From contig JAIORQ010000058.1 in assembly GCA_021108035.1 (NCBI GenBank), forward strand, positions 1-64,000: 64,000 nt of DNA. The letters are read 5' to 3'. Below, piece by piece: positions 1,490 to 11,478 of this stretch. The translations under genes and the position numbers were made by a program. Origin of the DNA: Bacteroidales bacterium (GTDB lineage: Bacteria > Bacteroidota > Bacteroidia > Bacteroidales > JAADGE01). Numbering within the stretch: the stretch's first letter is position 1; every line of letters begins with the position of its first letter. The notes below the pieces were generated by a model. It ran no database searches. It was not told the DNA's origin and saw nothing but the letters and a program-made list of their open reading frames with translations.

Positions 1490-3496
1490 ATGGAAATAAA
1501 AAATTTCATAAAATTAATCATCCCGATTTTTCTTATTTTGATTACCAATTCTTGTCAAAAAAAAGTTTACTTCGATGATGTAGATTCTGAAATTGATAAG
1601 TTAGTAATTGCACAAGATTTTGACTATAAGACAACTAAAAACATTTCTGTTAATATTACCGCAGTAAATTTCTATAATGATCCGATAATAGGTGCAGTTA
1701 TCGAAATTTATGATCAAGAATATTTTAATGAAGAAACAAATTTATTAAATGAAAATGCAACATTATTATTTAAAGGAATTACAAATAATAACGGAGTTTT
1801 CTCAGCAAGTTTTTCTATACCCGATAATATTGAAAACATATATGTTTGTCCTCAATATGTCGGACTTCCGAGTCAAATTAAACTACCGGCAATAAATAAT
1901 GAAATTAACTGTACAATTGGTAATAAATCATCAGGAAAAAGTGGATTTTTTTATTCTGAATCTTCAGATTACCAATTTATGGGAGCTTGGAACAGCTTGG
2001 GTGTACCTGATTATTTAGAACCGCAAAATGACACAATCAGCAGTGAATTTTTAGCAGATATTAATGCATCTTTACCTGAAAGAGTCCCTTTAACACAAAG
2101 TCATCCGGAATATCTCGCAGTAGGCAGTGAATGTAATACAAAACTTTATGAAGATGCAGATGTACGGATAACTTTTGTACATGAAGGAGCAGGTTGGAAA
2201 AACGTTCTTGCTTACTATACTTATGAAATAGGGAATGCACCTCAAAGTGTAGAAGACATTGAATATCTTACCGTTGTATTCCCGAATATTTCATATCCTA
2301 CAGCAGGGGGTCTTGTTTCAGGTAATAAAATTCATTTGGGGAGTTTTCCCGAAAATACTGAAATTGGTTGGTGCTTAATTGCACAAGGGTGGTGTAACTC
2401 TGATGTAACTGACGGAATTTATAAAGTATATTCAAATCCTGAATTAAACCCTGAAAATGATCCTGAACTTCAACAACATAATGTTTTATTATATGATGAC
2501 AGCAGAGATATTATGTTATTGGGTTTTGAAGATATTAAAAGAAGCTACTCATCTTGCGACAACGATTTTAATGATGCTGTGTTCTATGTTACAGTTGATC
2601 CGATTTCTGCAATAGAACCTCAACAATATAATAAAACTGCAAGTTACGAAGACAATGACGGAGACGGAGTATTAGATGAATATGATGATTATCCGGATAA
2701 TCCTGATCTTGCATTTAATAACTACTATAACGGAACATTGGTTTTTGAGGATCTTTGGCCGATTTCAGGAGATTATGATTTTAACGATTTGGTTTTGGAA
2801 TACAATATTAACCAAATTACTGATAATAACAATGATGTTGCAAAAATTGAATTCAGCCTTATAGTACAAGCTGTTGGTGCAAATTATTTTAACGGTTTTG
2901 GATTCGAGTTACCTGTCAGTTATACAAGTATTGAGTCAGTAACAGGCAGCAATTTAGGAGTGGGATATACATCAATGAATTCAAATGGAACAGAACAAGG
3001 CCAAACAAATGCCGTAATTATTGCTTTTGAAAATGCTTCTGATATTTTATCCTCAAGCGGTATGCTTGTTAATGTTCTTGAAGATTCTGAATATATTATT
3101 CCGGATACATTATTTATAACTGTAAACTTAATTGCTCCTGTTCCAACTAATGAATTAGGAACTCCACCGTATAATCCGTTTTTAATAAGTAACGGGCAAA
3201 GAGGAAATGAGATACATTTGCCTGATTATGAGCCTACTGATCTGGCAAATACATCATTATTCGGAACAGGTGATGATTTTACCCTTGAGAATGAAGGGAT
3301 ATATTATAAAACAAGTAACTATTTACCATGGGCTTTAAATATTAACGGAACTTTTAATTGGACATATGAAAATAAGAATATTATCAGTGCTTATTTAAAA
3401 TTTGCAAATTGGGCCGAAAGCTCCGGAGATTTATACCAAAATTGGTATGAAAATATTTCGAGTTACAGGGATGATTCTAAAATATATTATCCGTAA
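1490..3496 (+). CDS. LruC domain-containing lipoprotein
   Basis: The N-terminus is a lipoprotein signal with Cys22 in the context LITNSC, so export and lipidation are expected. Residues about 35-125 look like a beta-sandwich carboxypeptidase-regulatory-type domain. A DUF4114-like segment ends near residue 370 (GFEDIKRSY, NDFNDAVFYV). An Asp-rich DNDGDG calcium-loop motif follows at about 387-404. A DUF4842 domain (FEDLWPISGDYDFNDLVLEY, about 418-650) completes the LruC arrangement known from Bacteroidota and Leptospira surface proteins. The gene opens a row with a small secreted protein, a usher-like barrel and a PapD-like chaperone 28, 5 and 25 bp apart. I infer a surface or fibre-tip component; the biochemical role of LruC proteins is not established. 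Confidence 0.82.
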   Translation: MEIKNFIKLIIPIFLILITNSCQKKVYFDDVDSEIDKLVIAQDFDYKTTKNISVNITAVNFYNDPIIGAVIEIYDQEYFNEETNLLNENATLLFKGITNNNGVFSASFSIPDNIENIYVCPQYVGLPSQIKLPAINNEINCTIGNKSSGKSGFFYSESSDYQFMGAWNSLGVPDYLEPQNDTISSEFLADINASLPERVPLTQSHPEYLAVGSECNTKLYEDADVRITFVHEGAGWKNVLAYYTYEIGNAPQSVEDIEYLTVVFPNISYPTAGGLVSGNKIHLGSFPENTEIGWCLIAQGWCNSDVTDGIYKVYSNPELNPENDPELQQHNVLLYDDSRDIMLLGFEDIKRSYSSCDNDFNDAVFYVTVDPISAIEPQQYNKTASYEDNDGDGVLDEYDDYPDNPDLAFNNYYNGTLVFEDLWPISGDYDFNDLVLEYNINQITDNNNDVAKIEFSLIVQAVGANYFNGFGFELPVSYTSIESVTGSNLGVGYTSMNSNGTEQGQTNAVIIAFENASDILSSSGMLVNVLEDSEYIIPDTLFITVNLIAPVPTNELGTPPYNPFLISNGQRGNEIHLPDYEPTDLANTSLFGTGDDFTLENEGIYYKTSNYLPWALNINGTFNWTYENKNIISAYLKFANWAESSGDLYQNWYENISSYRDDSKIYYP

Positions 3497-3524
3497 AATA
3501 TTAACCTTTTTAAATAAATAAAAA

Positions 3525-4124
3525 ATGAAAACTAAAAACTTACTGTTAACTGCTGTATTTATGATGATTTTCTTAAACTTCATAAATGCTCAAGTAAACG
3601 AATCCGAAGTTATTACATTAACTTCTAATCTTAATACAACAATGTATTTAGATATGAGTTCTGCCGGTTATATGCCTGTTATTTTTGATTTTAATACACT
3701 GAATGATTATAAAAACGGGCTTGGAGGATACGATAATTGGGATTATTTCCATATGGCAAGTATAAATTCAACAGCAAATTGGAAATTTGGTGTTCGATCA
3801 GTATCTCCATTCTTACATTACAACGGAAATACCGAAATTCCGACAGATAATATCGGAATAAGTGTATTATGGCAAGGATTAAATACAATCATTAATAATG
3901 CTGATGAAATACCTCTCGGTATTATTCCTTCTGAAAAAATATTATTGGAATACGACGGTATCAATTCCAACTCCGGAGATTACTATACAAATAATTTTAT
4001 ACTTTTTTATGAAATGGGAACTCAATCAGGAGATATGAAACAAGAATCAATTTTTCTGCAAAACTTAAAGAAAGGTTCCTATACAATGGATATTCAATAT
4101 GTTGTTACTGAAATAATTGATTGA
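3525..4124 (+). CDS. secreted beta-sandwich protein, possible fibre subunit
   Basis: A signal peptide covers residues 1-22 (ending INAQ) and the mature part is about 177 residues of predicted beta structure. It ends with a strand of the type KGSYTMDIQYVVT, as seen at the end of Ig-like pilin or coat-type subunits. There are no cysteines or membrane segments, and I recognise no named family. Its place between an LruC lipoprotein and a usher-like barrel plus PapD-like chaperone suggests it is the exported or polymerising subunit; this is inference from context and fold guess only. The stop codon lies 5 bp before the ATG of the next gene. Confidence 0.6.
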   Translation: MKTKNLLLTAVFMMIFLNFINAQVNESEVITLTSNLNTTMYLDMSSAGYMPVIFDFNTLNDYKNGLGGYDNWDYFHMASINSTANWKFGVRSVSPFLHYNGNTEIPTDNIGISVLWQGLNTIINNADEIPLGIIPSEKILLEYDGINSNSGDYYTNNFILFYEMGTQSGDMKQESIFLQNLKKGSYTMDIQYVVTEIID

Positions 4125-4129
4125 GTTTT

Positions 4130-6898
4130 ATGAGATTCTTGGGTTGCATAGTGATATGTTTTGTGATGTTAACAATCTCATTTCCCCTTCTTGCTCAAGA
4201 AAGCAATATTGCGAAACAAATTGAATTTAATTTTATAAAAGCTCAAAAAGATCAAGATACTGATAAAGCATATTTTAACGTATTAAAAATTGAAAATAAA
4301 TCGAATAAAGAATTAAGTTTTGAACAAGAGATTATTATTCCGAAGGGTTGGAAAAGTTTGTCGTTTTTCCAAAAAAAGTTAACATTAAAACCCGGCACTT
4401 CAAAATCTGTCCCGGTCAGATTAATAGTTGATAAAAAAGCTGAAACAAATTTTGATTTTATAATAAGAGCAAATTTAATATTAAATAAAACAGACACACT
4501 ACATGCAAGCACAATAATTAATATTGAAGCAAAACATAATTGGAAATTTGAAATCAGTAACAATGATGTTTTCATTAATCCGGAAAACGAGCAAAACCCG
4601 GTAATATTAAAAATCAATAATAAAGGGAATGTTCCTGAAACAATTTATATTAAAATGCAAATAACAGATGAAATAAAAGTACTTGATAATTTGGAAAAGT
4701 TTCAGGTGTATTTAGAAGCCGGGAAAGATACTTGTATTAAATTGAGTATTGAACCGAAAAAGTTTTATAAAGACAAACAATTTTCAGGAAAAACATCAAA
4801 AATTATTGCCTGTAATGATTTTAATTCATTTGAAAAAGCATTCACTGTTTCAAAGTTAAGCAACACCTATGATTATCTGTCAGAAGAAAGTTCAAAACCC
4901 GGTAATCTTGTCGGTATTAAAACACATAATTTAAACGAACCGAATCTGTTGCAATATTCTGTATTCACAAGAGGTGAATATATTTTTAGTACATCAAAGT
5001 CATTAAAGTATGATTTTGTGCTAAACAATTTGTCTGAAGAAGGTAACTTTTTATCAAACAATAAACTCGCACTTTATTATTATTCAAATAATTTAAAGTT
5101 CGGAATCGGACCATCCGGTTCAGCATTGGGTAAAAACCTTAATATCAGTAACAGTATATTTTTAGATTATCATTATAAAATAAATAAACAGCAATTTCTG
5201 TATTTTTTTGCAAATCAAAGTATTATTAAGAATGAACAAAGTTTGGCCGCCGGTCATAAATTGTTAACAAAAAACTTTTCTTTAAACAGCAGCATTGCCG
5301 CAAATTCCGATAAAAGTGAAAGTAATAATACATTGAGCATGGTTTCGGTCTCACGCTTAAATATTAATAAATTTAATACAGTAAACTTTAAATTGAAACT
5401 CAACAGAGAAAATTTCTACAATGAACTAAATCCTTTAAAGTATGAATATATACATACATTAAACTATAAAGGCACAATATCAAAGAAAATATCGGTGGGT
5501 TTAATTAATGAATTCTATTTTCAAAAAGAAAGTATTCGTATTAACACAAGTCTCCGAAATGTATTATTTGCAAAATACAATCTAACCGGTAATACATCTC
5601 TTTTTGCTCAATATAATTATTTGAACAAAAAAAATGATGTAAATAATGTTTTTGAGATTATCGAAAACTCCGTAAAACTACAACTCTCAAAACCAATTTA
5701 TAAGGAAGTAAGACTTACAGCGGGATTATTATATACAACTTATTCAAAAAGTGAAAATTTTATGAAAAGTTCACATTCCTGTTTCGTTACATCAAATTAT
5801 TCAAAGACAAATATCAGATTTAAATCAACCTGGTTATTCGGATATAAAAATACTGATTTTGACAGCCTGCATATAAAAAATGAAACTCAAATGATGTTTA
5901 ATAATTCATTTTATCATCAATTAAATTCAAACAATGAATATTTTGTAGAGTTAAAATATTCAAACGGAATATACCCCAATGAGATTATTTATTTAGACAG
6001 ATATTCTAAACTGGATTTTACTGCTTCTTATAAACAGTATTTTTATAACAATCATCTTTTATTTGATATAGGAAGTAATTATCAATATACATCATATAAT
6101 AAATCACAAGGGATAAATATAATAACCGGTATTGGATTAAATTTAAGAAGAAATATTAATATAAAAATTGATTCAAAGTTTCAAAGGGCCGTAAGCGGTG
6201 AATTCAGCATCGGTAAACTGGAAGCAACTTTCATTAAGGGCTTTGAATATTCAAATCAAAAAACCGGTAACTACAACTTAAATATTACGTTTTTTAAAGA
6301 TATTAACAGTAACGGAAAATTAGATGCAGATGAAAGCACAATTGACAACGTGAAAGTTAACCTGAAATATAAAAGCTCTGATAATAAGGGCGATACAATT
6401 AAAAAGTATAGTATGTATATTTCACTGTTATCTGATATTGAAGGAAGAGCAAGTTACAAAAAAATACCTCAAGGATTATATGAAATAGATTTTTTGCCGC
6501 TTAACGATTTGCAATCTTGGTTTAATTTTTTTGGAAATAACTCTACAATTGTTTTAAATGAAGATAAAGAAATGTTAATCCCGTTTGTGCAGGCTGCAAA
6601 AATAAAAGGTTCTCTTGAATTACAAAAAGACAGATTTTCTTCATTAGGCTTAATAGATGTCGGAAATATCAGAATAAAAGCTGTTGATGAAGACGGTAAA
6701 GAGTATTCAACATTAACCGACCATTTCGGCAGTTTTATTATTTATGTTCCGAATAATATAAGCTATATCGTATCAATTAATAATCTGTTCGGAAAAAAGA
6801 TAATTCTTAAAGAAAATGATATAAAAGTGAACTCAATTAACCAAAGTGCGTCAGTTAATTTCATATTAACAGAGAAAAAAAGGAAAATTAATTTTTAA
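4130..6898 (+). CDS. usher-like outer membrane beta-barrel protein
   Basis: ATG 4130 is chosen over an in-frame TTG at 4121 because the TTG overlaps the upstream stop and the ATG begins a clean 23-residue signal peptide (ending PLLAQ). After it come two Ig-like NEW3-type domains (about 24-130 and 135-245). Then about 420 residues of alternating short amphipathic strands rich in Asn, Tyr and Phe (about 265-690) look like an outer-membrane barrel. The C-terminus has an SdrD-B-type segment (KDINSNGKLDADES, about 723) and a carboxypeptidase-regulatory-like domain (about 845-915). A barrel flanked by small beta domains, directly before a PapD-like chaperone, resembles a fimbrial usher, but I see no diagnostic FimD motif. 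A barrel with another transport or anchoring role is possible. Confidence 0.65.
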   Translation: MRFLGCIVICFVMLTISFPLLAQESNIAKQIEFNFIKAQKDQDTDKAYFNVLKIENKSNKELSFEQEIIIPKGWKSLSFFQKKLTLKPGTSKSVPVRLIVDKKAETNFDFIIRANLILNKTDTLHASTIINIEAKHNWKFEISNNDVFINPENEQNPVILKINNKGNVPETIYIKMQITDEIKVLDNLEKFQVYLEAGKDTCIKLSIEPKKFYKDKQFSGKTSKIIACNDFNSFEKAFTVSKLSNTYDYLSEESSKPGNLVGIKTHNLNEPNLLQYSVFTRGEYIFSTSKSLKYDFVLNNLSEEGNFLSNNKLALYYYSNNLKFGIGPSGSALGKNLNISNSIFLDYHYKINKQQFLYFFANQSIIKNEQSLAAGHKLLTKNFSLNSSIAANSDKSESNNTLSMVSVSRLNINKFNTVNFKLKLNRENFYNELNPLKYEYIHTLNYKGTISKKISVGLINEFYFQKESIRINTSLRNVLFAKYNLTGNTSLFAQYNYLNKKNDVNNVFEIIENSVKLQLSKPIYKEVRLTAGLLYTTYSKSENFMKSSHSCFVTSNYSKTNIRFKSTWLFGYKNTDFDSLHIKNETQMMFNNSFYHQLNSNNEYFVELKYSNGIYPNEIIYLDRYSKLDFTASYKQYFYNNHLLFDIGSNYQYTSYNKSQGINIITGIGLNLRRNINIKIDSKFQRAVSGEFSIGKLEATFIKGFEYSNQKTGNYNLNITFFKDINSNGKLDADESTIDNVKVNLKYKSSDNKGDTIKKYSMYISLLSDIEGRASYKKIPQGLYEIDFLPLNDLQSWFNFFGNNSTIVLNEDKEMLIPFVQAAKIKGSLELQKDRFSSLGLIDVGNIRIKAVDEDGKEYSTLTDHFGSFIIYVPNNISYIVSINNLFGKKIILKENDIKVNSINQSASVNFILTEKKRKINF

Positions 6899-6923
6899 AT
6901 TATTTATATAAAATTTTAGACAC

Positions 6924-7721
6924 ATGAAAAAAATTGTATTTATTTTAGTCTGTTTTGCATTCTGTCTTTCCTCAACTTTTGCTCAAAAATTTGAGATAGC
7001 ACCTACAAGAATGGATTATAATTTAGAGCCCGGACAAAGCGGGAGAATGATACTGCACGTTACCAACCAATCAGATAAAAAAAGAAGTTATATAACAATT
7101 CTTAATGATTGGAACATTACCGAAAACGGTAAAATTGATTATTCAGAACCGAATACTACGGAAAGATCTTGTGCAGATTGGATTACAATTACGCCGGCTT
7201 TTTTTGAGCTTGCTCCGAATGAGCAAAAAAAAATTAGTGTATTAATGAAAGTTCCTGAAAACGAAAATGCAAAATCAACAAAATGGGCAATGCTTTTTGT
7301 ACAAGAAGCAATTGAGAAAAATGAGACTATAGGAGGCGATAAGAATACAAGTGCAGGTATTACTGTTAATCCGAGTATCGGTGTGTATGTATTTCAATCA
7401 CCCGATTCGTATAATAATACAAGTGCAGTTATTAAGAATTTAAGAAAATCTGATAATGAAAATACACTAATTGTAGATGTTACTAATACCGGAGATAAAA
7501 TTATTCAGGGAAAAGTTTATTTAATAATTTCAGACTTGCAAAAAGCAGAGGAAGATCAGTTAGAACCCAAAGAATTTACAATTCTTCCCGGTGTTTCCAG
7601 AACTTTGAGTTTGGACTTACCTGAAAATATGGAAAAAGGAGCTTACTCAATCGCAAGTGTGTTAGATTATTCTGAAGACAAAGATTTAGAAGGGGCGGTA
7701 CTGGAATATGAAGTGAAGTAG
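6924..7721 (+). CDS. PapD-like periplasmic chaperone
   Basis: A signal peptide ends at about residue 20 (STFAQ). The mature 245 residues form two Ig-like domains. The first (about 22-145) has the PapD/COG1470-like opening 'FEIAPTRMDYNLEPGQSGRMIL', quoted here in outline, and a phrase near APNEQKKISVLMKVPE that matches the strand layout of pilus chaperones. The second domain spans about 155-265. The chaperone would cap subunits in the periplasm and deliver them to the barrel encoded just upstream. The gene starts 25 bp after the usher-like gene, consistent with one operon. The assignment rests on fold pattern and neighbourhood; signature Arg/Lys anchoring residues were not verified by alignment. 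Confidence 0.68.
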   Translation: MKKIVFILVCFAFCLSSTFAQKFEIAPTRMDYNLEPGQSGRMILHVTNQSDKKRSYITILNDWNITENGKIDYSEPNTTERSCADWITITPAFFELAPNEQKKISVLMKVPENENAKSTKWAMLFVQEAIEKNETIGGDKNTSAGITVNPSIGVYVFQSPDSYNNTSAVIKNLRKSDNENTLIVDVTNTGDKIIQGKVYLIISDLQKAEEDQLEPKEFTILPGVSRTLSLDLPENMEKGAYSIASVLDYSEDKDLEGAVLEYEVK

Positions 7722-7787: not shown

Positions 7788-7952
7788 CACCCATGAGAAC
7801 CAAATTTCACACTAAGTAGCATGACTAACAAACAATGTTAATTACTTGCACATAGTTATAAGGTGTTCCTATGTGCAGAGCAAAACAAATATAACAAACA
7901 GCGATAAGCATTCATCTTGCACAATATTCATTAATTGCAAAATTTTAGACAC

Positions 7953-9104
7953 ATGAAAAAAATATATCTATTATTTATAATTATTTTAAGCTGTTTCACT
8001 ATCAAATCACAATATCATACAGATACAGTGTTTTATGACCAAACAGAAAATCCCAAGTTTATTTATACTTCTGTTTTAGAAAACGGACAAACGATCAGAC
8101 ACGGTAAATTCGAGTATTTTTACCCTGAAGGGAAAATATTACATCAAAGCGGGTATTATTATATGAACGAACCCGACAGTACATGGTTTATTTATAACAG
8201 ATTAGCAATATTAACCCAAATTGTAAATTACAATAAAGGGATAAAAAACGGGCAGTTCGGAATTTATTATCAAACCGGAGAAATAAAACAAGAAGGATCA
8301 TATTTTGACGGGAAATTAAATTCTGAACTTATAAATTACAGTAAAGACGGAAATATTATTGAATTAACTAATTATGAGTTTGGTGTATTAGACGGAAAAG
8401 CAAGAGCTTATTATGAAAACGGGAATTTGCGTTTTATCAGAGAATATTCTGAAGGTAAAGTTTTCGGTAAGTATGAATTATACTATGAATCAGGTTCACC
8501 TAAAATATTGGCTCAAAAAAATGATGAAAAATATTTCGGAAAATATGAAGAATTCTACGAAAACGAGGTATTAAAGAAAAGTATGACATATAAAGATAAT
8601 GAAATTATCGGTGAATATATGTCATATTATAAATCAGGAAATCTTCAAACAACATGCAAATATAAAAACGGTAATATTCAAGGATATTTTAAAGAATATT
8701 ACGATAACAAACAATTGAAAGAAATTAGTTTTTATAAAAACGGAAAAAAAGAAAAAGCATCTAAACTTTATTATTCGGACGGAACATGTTATATTGAAGG
8801 ACAATTTAAAGACGGAAAATTTAACAAAACATGGAAAGTATATTTCCCGAACGGCAAAATAAAACAAACAGGTAAATATAAAAAATCAAATTCAGAAGGT
8901 AAATGGACATTTTATTATCAAAACGGAAAGACAGAAAAGAACGGCAAGTATAAGAATGATAACAAGATTGGTTTATGGTCATTTTACTATGAAGACGGAA
9001 CTTTACAAGCAAAAGTATTTTTTAATGAAAACAGTAATTCAGATGTTTTGGAGTACTATTCTCAAACGAATGAAAAATTAGACCCGGATCAATTTAATCC
9101 TTAA
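7953..9104 (+). CDS. secreted MORN-variant (YwqK-like) repeat protein
   Basis: The ATG at 7953 is preferred over an in-frame TTG at 7935 because it begins the signal peptide (MKKIYLLFIIILSCFTIKSQ). The remaining 360 residues are at least ten tandem 20-25-residue repeats of the form G-x-W/Y-x-x-Y-Y-x-x-G-x-x-x-x-x-x-x-Y-x-x-G, the MORN repeat variant found in YwqK-family proteins. Such proteins in Bacteroidota are usually periplasmic or surface-associated. The YwqK 'antitoxin' label is historical and I see no toxin partner here. The gene shares its 25-bp start region with the chaperone gene. Its stop codon lies inside the left arm of a 23-bp inverted repeat. Confidence 0.8.
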   Translation: MKKIYLLFIIILSCFTIKSQYHTDTVFYDQTENPKFIYTSVLENGQTIRHGKFEYFYPEGKILHQSGYYYMNEPDSTWFIYNRLAILTQIVNYNKGIKNGQFGIYYQTGEIKQEGSYFDGKLNSELINYSKDGNIIELTNYEFGVLDGKARAYYENGNLRFIREYSEGKVFGKYELYYESGSPKILAQKNDEKYFGKYEEFYENEVLKKSMTYKDNEIIGEYMSYYKSGNLQTTCKYKNGNIQGYFKEYYDNKQLKEISFYKNGKKEKASKLYYSDGTCYIEGQFKDGKFNKTWKVYFPNGKIKQTGKYKKSNSEGKWTFYYQNGKTEKNGKYKNDNKIGLWSFYYEDGTLQAKVFFNENSNSDVLEYYSQTNEKLDPDQFNP

Positions 9105-9486: not shown

Positions 9487-11034
9487 GTGTTTAAAACAAT
9501 TAAAATATTGATATTGGAAGACTTTGAATCTGATATATTCTTGATTGAAAGACAACTTAAAAGAAATAAGCTGAATTACAAGCTTAAACACACTGATAAT
9601 ATTACTGACTTTGAGAAATATCTGAAAACATTTAAGCCTGATATCATTCTTTCCGATTATAACTTACCTGATTTTAACGGTCTTGAAGCATTATCAATTG
9701 TTGTTCAACATCCTATATACATTCCTTTCATTATAGTAACCGGAGCTTTAGATGAAGAAACAGCAGTTGCTTGTATAAAAGCCGGGGCTGATGATTATTT
9801 AACAAAAGAAAATTTAACTCGACTTGTTTCGGCAATACAATCATCCATTGACAAAAGGGATACATTACTTAAAAAAGAAAAAGCAGAGAAGGAAACAAAA
9901 CAATTAGCAAAAGAACTGCAAACATTAATTAAAACAGTAAATACACCCATTTTTAGTGTAGATAAAAAGGGGGAAATAAATGAATGGAATAATGCAACAG
10001 AAAAAATTACCGGTTTTTCAAAGAAAAGTGTTTTAGAGAAGAATTTTGTTGAAAATTTTATACACGAAGATCAAAAAGAAACAGTAAACCGGATTATTAC
10101 AGATACGATTGAAGGCTCATGCATTACTAATTTTGAGATATTGCTCAAAACAGAAAAGAGATATAAGAAATTATTGCTGAACACCACAACAAAAAGAAAT
10201 AATTACGGAGAAGTTATAGGAGTTATTCTTATTGGGCAAGATATTACCAAAATGGCAGATTACAGGGAGGAATTGGAACAAAAGATTGAAGAAAGAACAA
10301 AAGAGCTTAAAACAGCTTTAGAAAAAGAAAAAGAATTGAATGAGTTAAAATCTCGCTTTGTTTCAATGGCATCTCACGAATTCAGAACGCCATTGGCTGC
10401 AATAGGTTTTGTTTCAGGGTTTTTGAAAAAATACGGAGACAGAATTGACAAAGAGGCACATGATAAAAAACTTGATAAAATTAATATTCAAATTAAGTAT
10501 CTTACTTCAATGCTTGATGATATACTTACCATAGGAAAAGCTGATGCAAGATCTAAATTCAAGCCTGAAACATTAAAGTTTTCCGACTTTATTAAACCAC
10601 TGTTGGAAGAAGTGAAAACAGTATCCGAAAATTCTCATGAAATTGAGTTTTTAATGACAAATAAGAATTTTACAATTGACTTAGATCCAAAATTAGGAAG
10701 GAATATTTTTATCAATTTACTAACCAATGCAATTAAGTTTTCACCCGGAAAAAAACATATACTGTTTGAAAACAAGATAGAAAACGGCAGCTTAATATCT
10801 AAAGTTACAGATTTTGGAATAGGTATTCCTGAAGAAGAATTAGAAATGGTTTTTATTCCGTTTCACAGAGCAAAAAATACAGAAGCAATACAAGGAACAG
10901 GCTTAGGCTTAGCAATTGTAAAAGAAGCAGTTGAAATTCATAAAGGAACGGTAAGTGTAGAAAGCAAAAAAAGTAAAGTAACGACTTTTACAATAAAATT
11001 ACCTTTAAAAACAGATATACACACCAATAATTAA
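9487..11034 (+). CDS. REC-PAS histidine kinase
   Basis: The order is receiver (about 5-125, phosphoacceptor Asp57 in LSDYNLPD), PAS (about 145-255, closing GQDIT), coiled coil, HisKA (about 285-350, His297 in SMASHEFRTPL) and HATPase_c (about 395-508, N box NLLTNAIKFS, G1 DFGIGIP, G2 GTGLGLAIV). All catalytic motifs are intact and there is no membrane segment, so it is a cytoplasmic kinase fed by another phosphorelay step. It starts with GTG; no better ATG lies in frame. It is a shorter paralogue of the 21354-24377 kinase: the receiver, last PAS and kinase core match closely. A single-domain receiver follows after 6 bp and is probably its partner. Confidence 0.88.
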   Translation: MFKTIKILILEDFESDIFLIERQLKRNKLNYKLKHTDNITDFEKYLKTFKPDIILSDYNLPDFNGLEALSIVVQHPIYIPFIIVTGALDEETAVACIKAGADDYLTKENLTRLVSAIQSSIDKRDTLLKKEKAEKETKQLAKELQTLIKTVNTPIFSVDKKGEINEWNNATEKITGFSKKSVLEKNFVENFIHEDQKETVNRIITDTIEGSCITNFEILLKTEKRYKKLLLNTTTKRNNYGEVIGVILIGQDITKMADYREELEQKIEERTKELKTALEKEKELNELKSRFVSMASHEFRTPLAAIGFVSGFLKKYGDRIDKEAHDKKLDKINIQIKYLTSMLDDILTIGKADARSKFKPETLKFSDFIKPLLEEVKTVSENSHEIEFLMTNKNFTIDLDPKLGRNIFINLLTNAIKFSPGKKHILFENKIENGSLISKVTDFGIGIPEEELEMVFIPFHRAKNTEAIQGTGLGLAIVKEAVEIHKGTVSVESKKSKVTTFTIKLPLKTDIHTNN

Positions 11035-11040
11035 AAAATT

Positions 11041-11478
11041 ATGAACAAGCATCAACAAATTGAAATTATATTAGTGGAAGATAATCCGGACGATGCACGT
11101 TTGGCAATCCGAGAACTTACGAAAAATAATCTTGCAAATAATCTGATACACTTAAAAGACGGAGAAGAAGCATTAAATTATTTTTTTGGAGAAAAAGATG
11201 AAGCAAAGTATTATTCAGAAAAAAACCCTAAGTTAGTTTTACTTGATTTAAAAATGCCTAAAGTAGGAGGGATTGAAGTTTTAAGGGAACTTCGGAAAAA
11301 TGAGAAAACAAAATCAATTCCGGTGGTTGTCTTTACATCTTCAAGTGAAGAAAAAGATATTATTGAAACCTACAAACTGGGAGTGAACAGCTATATTGTG
11401 AAACCTGTTGATTTTGACAGATTTACAGAAGTCATTAAGGAAATCGGTTATTATTGGTTGGTTATTAATAAAATGTAA
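11041..11478 (+). CDS. Rcp1-type single-domain response regulator
   Basis: A lone receiver of 145 residues with the acidic pocket VEDNPDD (13-19), phosphoacceptor Asp69 in LLDLKMP, the Thr/Ser switch in VFTSSSEE and the Lys in IVKPVDF. The insertion after helix 2 (DGEEALNYFFGEKDE) is typical of the cyanophytochrome-partner Rcp1 group. There is no output domain, so it passes phosphate or binds a target. It starts 6 bp after the REC-PAS kinase and is surely co-transcribed. The last helix ends YYWLVINKM. Confidence 0.88.
   Translation: MNKHQQIEIILVEDNPDDARLAIRELTKNNLANNLIHLKDGEEALNYFFGEKDEAKYYSEKNPKLVLLDLKMPKVGGIEVLRELRKNEKTKSIPVVVFTSSSEEKDIIETYKLGVNSYIVKPVDFDRFTEVIKEIGYYWLVINKM

Follow-up and report, generated by a model that had tools for sequence, protein, structure and literature searches.

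A likely chaperone-usher-like pilus cassette of Bacteroidota and its relationship to TLP-1 filaments

The window analyzed here is a stretch of 64,000 nt of contig JAIORQ010000058.1 (assembly GCA_021108035.1). Close to its start, four open reading frames (ORFs) lie next to each other and encode an LruC lipoprotein, a small secreted pilin-like protein, a large outer-membrane barrel protein and a PapD-like chaperone; a gene for a MORN-repeat protein comes after them. All cassette genes are on the plus strand. Together, the evidence presented below makes it likely that the locus is a divergent chaperone-usher-like pilus cassette of Bacteroidota, which builds filaments of the TLP-1 type. The features of the locus are as follows.

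1490..3496, plus strand: LruC-domain lipoprotein of 668 amino acids (aa), with DUF4114 at residues 286-369 and LruC/DUF4842 at 415-654; a lineage-specific neighbour outside the core
3525..4124, plus strand: pilin-like subunit of the TLP-1 family with a signal peptide, 199 aa (profile, AlphaFold2, Foldseek and VIA)
4130..6898, plus strand: usher-like outer-membrane barrel protein, 922 aa from the ATG (925 aa from the TTG at 4121)
4220..4855, plus strand: two N-terminal immunoglobulin (Ig)-like domains of the barrel protein, residues 34-245 in the TTG numbering (model and FixG_C/NPCBM-type matches)
4904..6244, plus strand: predicted 26-strand barrel without a plug, residues 262-708 in the TTG numbering (AlphaFold2 model)
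6269..6874, plus strand: C-terminal domains similar to SdrD_B and CarboxypepD_reg, at residues 717-918 and probably in the periplasm
6924..7721, plus strand: PapD-like periplasmic chaperone, 265 aa (Pfam, hhalign)
7953..9104, plus strand: secreted MORN-repeat protein (PF07661, 6.6e-28), with an alternative TTG start at 7935

An earlier reading of this DNA, made from the sequence only, had described four adjacent genes with a spacing of 28, 5 and 25 bp, and both the positions and the gaps (LruC to pilin, pilin to barrel and barrel to chaperone, respectively) are correct. The 5 bp gap holds with the ATG start of the barrel gene at 4130; use of the TTG at 4121 gives a 4-bp overlap with the pilin gene. 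A near-identical copy of the locus (L063) encodes a pilin and a barrel of 95% identity and a chaperone of 98% identity. In comparison with this copy, the ratio of nonsynonymous to synonymous substitution rates (dN/dS) is 0.05-0.17 for all four genes, indicative of purifying selection, and the ORFs are therefore genuine genes.

The 3525 product matched no Pfam or NCBIfam family, and its signal peptide could be read directly from the sequence. In the AlphaFold2 model, built with 69 relatives (predicted local distance difference test score, pLDDT, 89.7), the mature N-terminus is in no strand up to residue 39 and the final strand, at 190-196, lies near the C-terminus. This strand layout suggests a subunit with an Ig fold minus its last strand and with a free N-terminal extension of the donor type. 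A search of the PDB with the profile of the pilin family matched exactly two sequences, 9ikk and 9ikj (E 1e-8), which are named TLP-2 and TLP-1 by molecule and TLP-1b and TLP-1a by title. The same TLP-1a/b structures were the top two Foldseek matches (3e-6), and structural comparison by VIA gave a Z-score of 10.7 over 157 aligned residues (root-mean-square deviation 3.1, 18% identity in the structural alignment). The next VIA matches, at Z 6-7, were the chaperone-usher pilins CsuA/B, CfaB/CfaE, FimA and PapK, and TasA was also among the matches. The small secreted beta protein of the sequence-only reading is thus pilin-like by model, Foldseek and VIA. Further support for the relationship is provided by a sister pilin (L055), which aligns with TLP-1 over its full length (E 1e-40), and the closest genomic homologues of TLP-1b that we saw are about 50% identical and found in Bacteroidia. 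Homology to 9ikj/9ikk in both sequence and fold places the window pilin in the TLP-1 family, as a distant branch.

The abbreviation TLP refers to Tsinghua Lotus Pond; the TLP-1 structures are reported to come from the CryoSeek study. The PDB holds TLP-1 as a cryo-electron microscopy (cryo-EM) filament only. The makers of the pond-water filaments of the TLP-1 authors have not been conclusively identified, according to a 2026 perspective (PMC12967142).

The chaperone has a Pfam match above the cut-off to WxLIP_PGBD in its N-domain and one just below it to PapD_N (4e-4), and the chaperone profile finds EfmWxLIP1 in the PDB. Comparison of the family with seven E. coli fimbrial chaperones by hhalign gave 89% and an E-value of 2.3e-6 over 200 columns, covering both PapD domains. 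For the collection scan, the alignment was restricted to a closer subset, since the full set of chaperones proved too diverse. The two-domain PapD-like fold claimed earlier is therefore supported at the level of fold class, with the chaperone as a remote relative of PapD.

The barrel protein was modelled by AlphaFold2 with 38 relatives (pLDDT 80.3, predicted template modelling score, pTM, 0.48); a Pfam scan gave weak Ig-like matches only. In the model two N-terminal Ig domains are followed by the barrel and two C-terminal beta domains, the domain order of ushers, and in agreement with the description of a barrel flanked by small beta domains. The best Foldseek matches of the model are FimD and PapC (from 8e-12), and VIA aligned residues 260-917, comprising the barrel and the C-terminal domains, with FimD at Z 16.8. 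Relatives of the protein carry OmpA (12/38) or SPOR (2/38) domains at the C-terminus. As OmpA and SPOR domains bind peptidoglycan, the C-terminus of the barrel protein is probably periplasmic, as in ushers.

We examined whether these genes stay together from several starting points. A tblastn search with the barrel gave matches in 34 genomes out of the 295 examined for the class, and one of these matches is a second cassette in the genome that holds the window. All 32 barrel-centred loci have at least one pilin relative and 26 have a chaperone relative; several of the loci that lack the chaperone sit near contig ends. Loci centred on the chaperone (80 named) again show barrel and pilin genes, and a MORN-repeat gene is next on the same strand in 74 out of 76 cases, so the cassette reaches 9104 in this lineage. 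Loci centred on TLP-1 homologues have the barrel and/or the chaperone in 13 out of 16 cases and both in 10; each of the remaining three is an additional copy in a genome that has a full cassette as well. A phylum-wide search with the barrel profile gave matches in 46 out of 296 genomes, which are mostly short OmpA or SdrD_B matches and were not used as a measure of prevalence; matches covering most of the profile occur in only 6 genomes. Six further loci from this search, in five genomes, all contain barrel and chaperone with small secreted proteins alongside, and four of them resemble a classical fimbrial operon with several pilins, a chaperone, a barrel and a protein of 477-478 aa. Because the linkage is seen from several starting points and is absent from the LruC control loci described below, we conclude that the cassette is real and conserved and that LruC is outside it. 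Pilin, barrel and chaperone travel together across Bacteroidia, often with the MORN gene, their order and content recurring much more than chance would allow, and the conservation of neighbours anticipated by the sequence-only reading is upheld in the barrel-, chaperone- and TLP-1-centred loci as well as in the five further genomes.

Other copies of the cassette differ in composition. The second cassette in the same genome (G000:C17, L031: 1949-11095) is fuller, with two pilins and a barrel protein of 1191 aa, and its MORN protein and chaperone genes are divergent from a TPR-SpoIIE phosphatase gene. In many relatives a gene of this size (~620-660 aa) lies between those for the chaperone and the pilin. 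Some cassettes encode proteins of 440-460 aa (L046:6589-7950, L051:5743-7128 and L060:6502-7827) in which an extra N-terminal region precedes a C-terminal TLP-like pilin domain, an architecture like that of a tip adhesin; the window does not contain such a protein. A third pilin homologue in the same genome (G000:C76:9771-10361, L204) is a solitary gene that neighbours response-regulator and sensor genes, with no chaperone or barrel. In the window, the cassette is followed at 9487-11478 by a response regulator-PAS-histidine kinase and a single-domain response regulator, and response regulator or kinase genes also adjoin the cassette in L081, L205, L208 and L210.

Overall, secretion signals, a pilin-like fold, a PapD-related chaperone, a barrel in usher order, genetic linkage and filament homology, as read from sequence and prediction, argue for an assembly pathway of the following kind. 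The 6924 chaperone probably supplies the missing strand to the 3525 subunit in the periplasm. The 4130 barrel protein would then probably use its terminal domains, which are predicted to face the periplasm, to recruit chaperone-subunit complexes, and would thread the growing fibre outward. The N-terminal extension of each subunit may complete its neighbour by donor-strand exchange, and homology suggests that the resulting fibre resembles the TLP-1 cryo-EM filaments. A plugless 26-strand pore could be kept closed by either set of terminal domains, N- or C-terminal, or by a subunit that stays behind in the channel, and the MORN-repeat protein would be a conserved accessory. Shared with the chaperone-usher systems (type 1/P pili, archaic Csu and CFA/I) are the domain order of the barrel protein, the PapD-related chaperone, the incomplete-Ig pilin with its N-terminal extension and the clustering of the genes.

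Several results weigh against this assignment. The predicted barrel has 26 strands, a number that is itself a prediction at moderate confidence (pTM 0.48), and its longest inter-strand loop is 13 residues, leaving no plug. For the barrel alone, VIA ranks MtrB (Z 21.4) and several TonB-type receptors above FimD. There is no match to PF00577 (Usher) in the same genome, and hhalign of 38 barrel relatives with 6 E. coli ushers gave 0.4%, with no usher signal. Profile-profile comparison of the pilins with FimA-type pilins likewise gave no signal, and the pilins of this family are not alignable with FimA by sequence. In classical chaperones R8 and K112 anchor the C-terminus of the subunit, and both are present in the seven E. 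coli chaperones compared (7/7). Among 114 chaperone relatives, however, the anchor positions are R/K in 44 (R8) and 10 (K112), and the window chaperone has R29 at the first and Y155 in place of K at the second, so that classical R8/K112 anchor chemistry is not supported for the family. As proposed, the system works like a chaperone-usher pathway, yet departs from it in three defining respects: the PF00577 signal, the 24 strands with a plug, and the R8/K112 pair. What was suggested at the outset, a chaperone-usher-like locus, holds with regard to the PapD-related chaperone, the FimD/PapC-like barrel, the pilin and the linkage, and is not supported for the plug, the strand number and LruC as a core component. 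The 24-strand barrel with a plug was not borne out, and the smaller barrel considered as its alternative, a plugless transporter of 12-18 strands, agrees with the model in the missing plug but not in size.

Since fold and domain order match those of ushers but the usher sequence signal is missing, we call the barrel protein usher-like and not an usher. It is quite possible, although we consider the chance somewhat less than even, that the protein is a true FimD/PapC-family usher that has diverged beyond sequence recognition and has lost its plug. Consistent with such an origin, ushers are at the top of the Foldseek matches in the matching domain order, the chaperone is PapD-related and the pilin has a chaperone-usher-like fold. 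Against it stands the missing sequence signal, even in profile-profile comparison; the model with 26 strands and no plug, and the greater closeness of the barrel alone to MtrB and TonB-type barrels by Z-score, also argue against it. In addition, the phylum contains another usher-like pair, which is recognizable as such and differs from this one. Matches to PF00577 in the phylum are limited to 3 out of 296 genomes, all below the cut-off, and were set aside as belonging to another usher-like family, which has a chaperone of its own; in L143, L144 and L145 the usher-like protein adjoins a PapD-like protein and is not matched by the present barrel profile. We tentatively suggest, as a possibility that falls short of an even chance, that a plugless 26-strand barrel not descended from FimD/PapC and a PapD-type chaperone without the anchor pair represent a second solution, independently evolved or very ancient, to the chaperone-guided export of fibres, which would also produce the TLP-1-type filaments.

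The position of LruC in the system was also considered. The 1490 product is a member of the LruC domain family (TIGR04456, E 3.7e-75, 253 bits with a cut-off of 36) and has the lipobox TNSC, and it shares the LruC domain and the lipoprotein signal with LruC of Leptospira. The gene is beside the cassette in the window and, in the same order, in L063. LruC is missing from the cassettes of the relatives that follow in closeness, L066 and L064, the latter from the cultured, non-pathogenic isolate Prolixibacteraceae JC049, whereas L081, L083 and L095 again have LruC nearby. This distribution indicates that LruC is a lineage-specific neighbour. Most cassettes lack LruC, and none of 20 LruC-centred control loci from other genomes contains a barrel (0), chaperone (0) or pilin (0), so LruC was rejected as a core gene, and its earlier placement in the core of the system is not supported. 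The window LruC adjoins a pilin gene, unlike LruC copies elsewhere, and is a lineage-specific surface lipoprotein outside the conserved core. We consider it rather unlikely that LruC is nevertheless integral to the pilus in this lineage, for example as a tip adhesin or membrane anchor. In favor of such a role, lruC precedes the pilin gene by 28 bp on the same strand with the order kept in L063, is under purifying selection and recurs close to the cassette in three other loci, and the window cassette is without the second small subunit found in other cassettes. On the other hand, L064 and L066 manage without it, the control loci have it without the cassette, LruC is widespread with up to 10 matches per genome, and a Pfam scan found no pilin domain in its product. 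Any role as a surface, tip, anchor or adhesin partner of the pilus is speculative. Upstream of LruC, at 1090-1490, there were zero matches to the promoter pattern TTTG-N-TANNTTTG, and sigma-70-like matches were no more frequent than in shuffled sequence. A 107-aa ORF at 767-1090, 5' of LruC, has no Pfam match.

It is improbable that the barrel is some other surface scaffold or transporter and that the chaperone does no more than fold the small proteins, which would belong to a surface layer or matrix. The highest Z-scores of the barrel, with MtrB and nutrient-uptake receptors, point in this direction, as do the match of the chaperone N-domain to the Gram-positive WxLIP domain above the cut-off and the presence of TasA, a biofilm fibre protein, among the pilin matches. 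However, a helical filament of the pilin family has been solved, a pilin is found at every barrel locus and the barrel protein has the domain order of an usher. A likeness to Gram-positive WxL/WxLIP clusters is seen in the chaperone matches to WxLIP_PGBD and EfmWxLIP1; no WxL Pfam match was found among the 69 pilins, and the window system has a predicted outer-membrane barrel. Pfam also gave no type IX secretion system C-terminal sorting domain in these 69 pilins.

The Mfa/Fim pilins of Bacteroidota, such as FimA and Mfa1 of P. gingivalis, travel as lipoproteins. That the locus is of this type is very improbable in spite of the shared phylum and the small secreted beta-sandwich subunits, as a lipobox-like motif occurs in 1/69 pilins and not in the window pilin, no Mfa/Fim Pfam match was found among the pilins, and a chaperone and a barrel accompany them.

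Returning to the reading of the locus as a divergent chaperone-usher-like cassette, its main novelty lies in connecting TLP-1 filaments with a conserved gene cluster of Bacteroidota. The locus had been described as possibly unrecognized; we found no description of the assembly locus in the literature and family libraries searched, a search that did not include the original TLP-1 report, while the filament family is already in the PDB as TLP-1. The locus family gives TLP-1-type filaments a probable phylum, Bacteroidota, together with a gene cluster and an assembly machine, and turns an orphan filament structure into a system open to gene-deletion tests. If true, this would be a branch of pilus export with a plugless pore and an anchor-less chaperone, raising the question of how much of the FimD/PapC mechanism is required. 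It would also represent a second way of making surface fibres in Bacteroidota, where the pili known so far follow the lipoprotein route.

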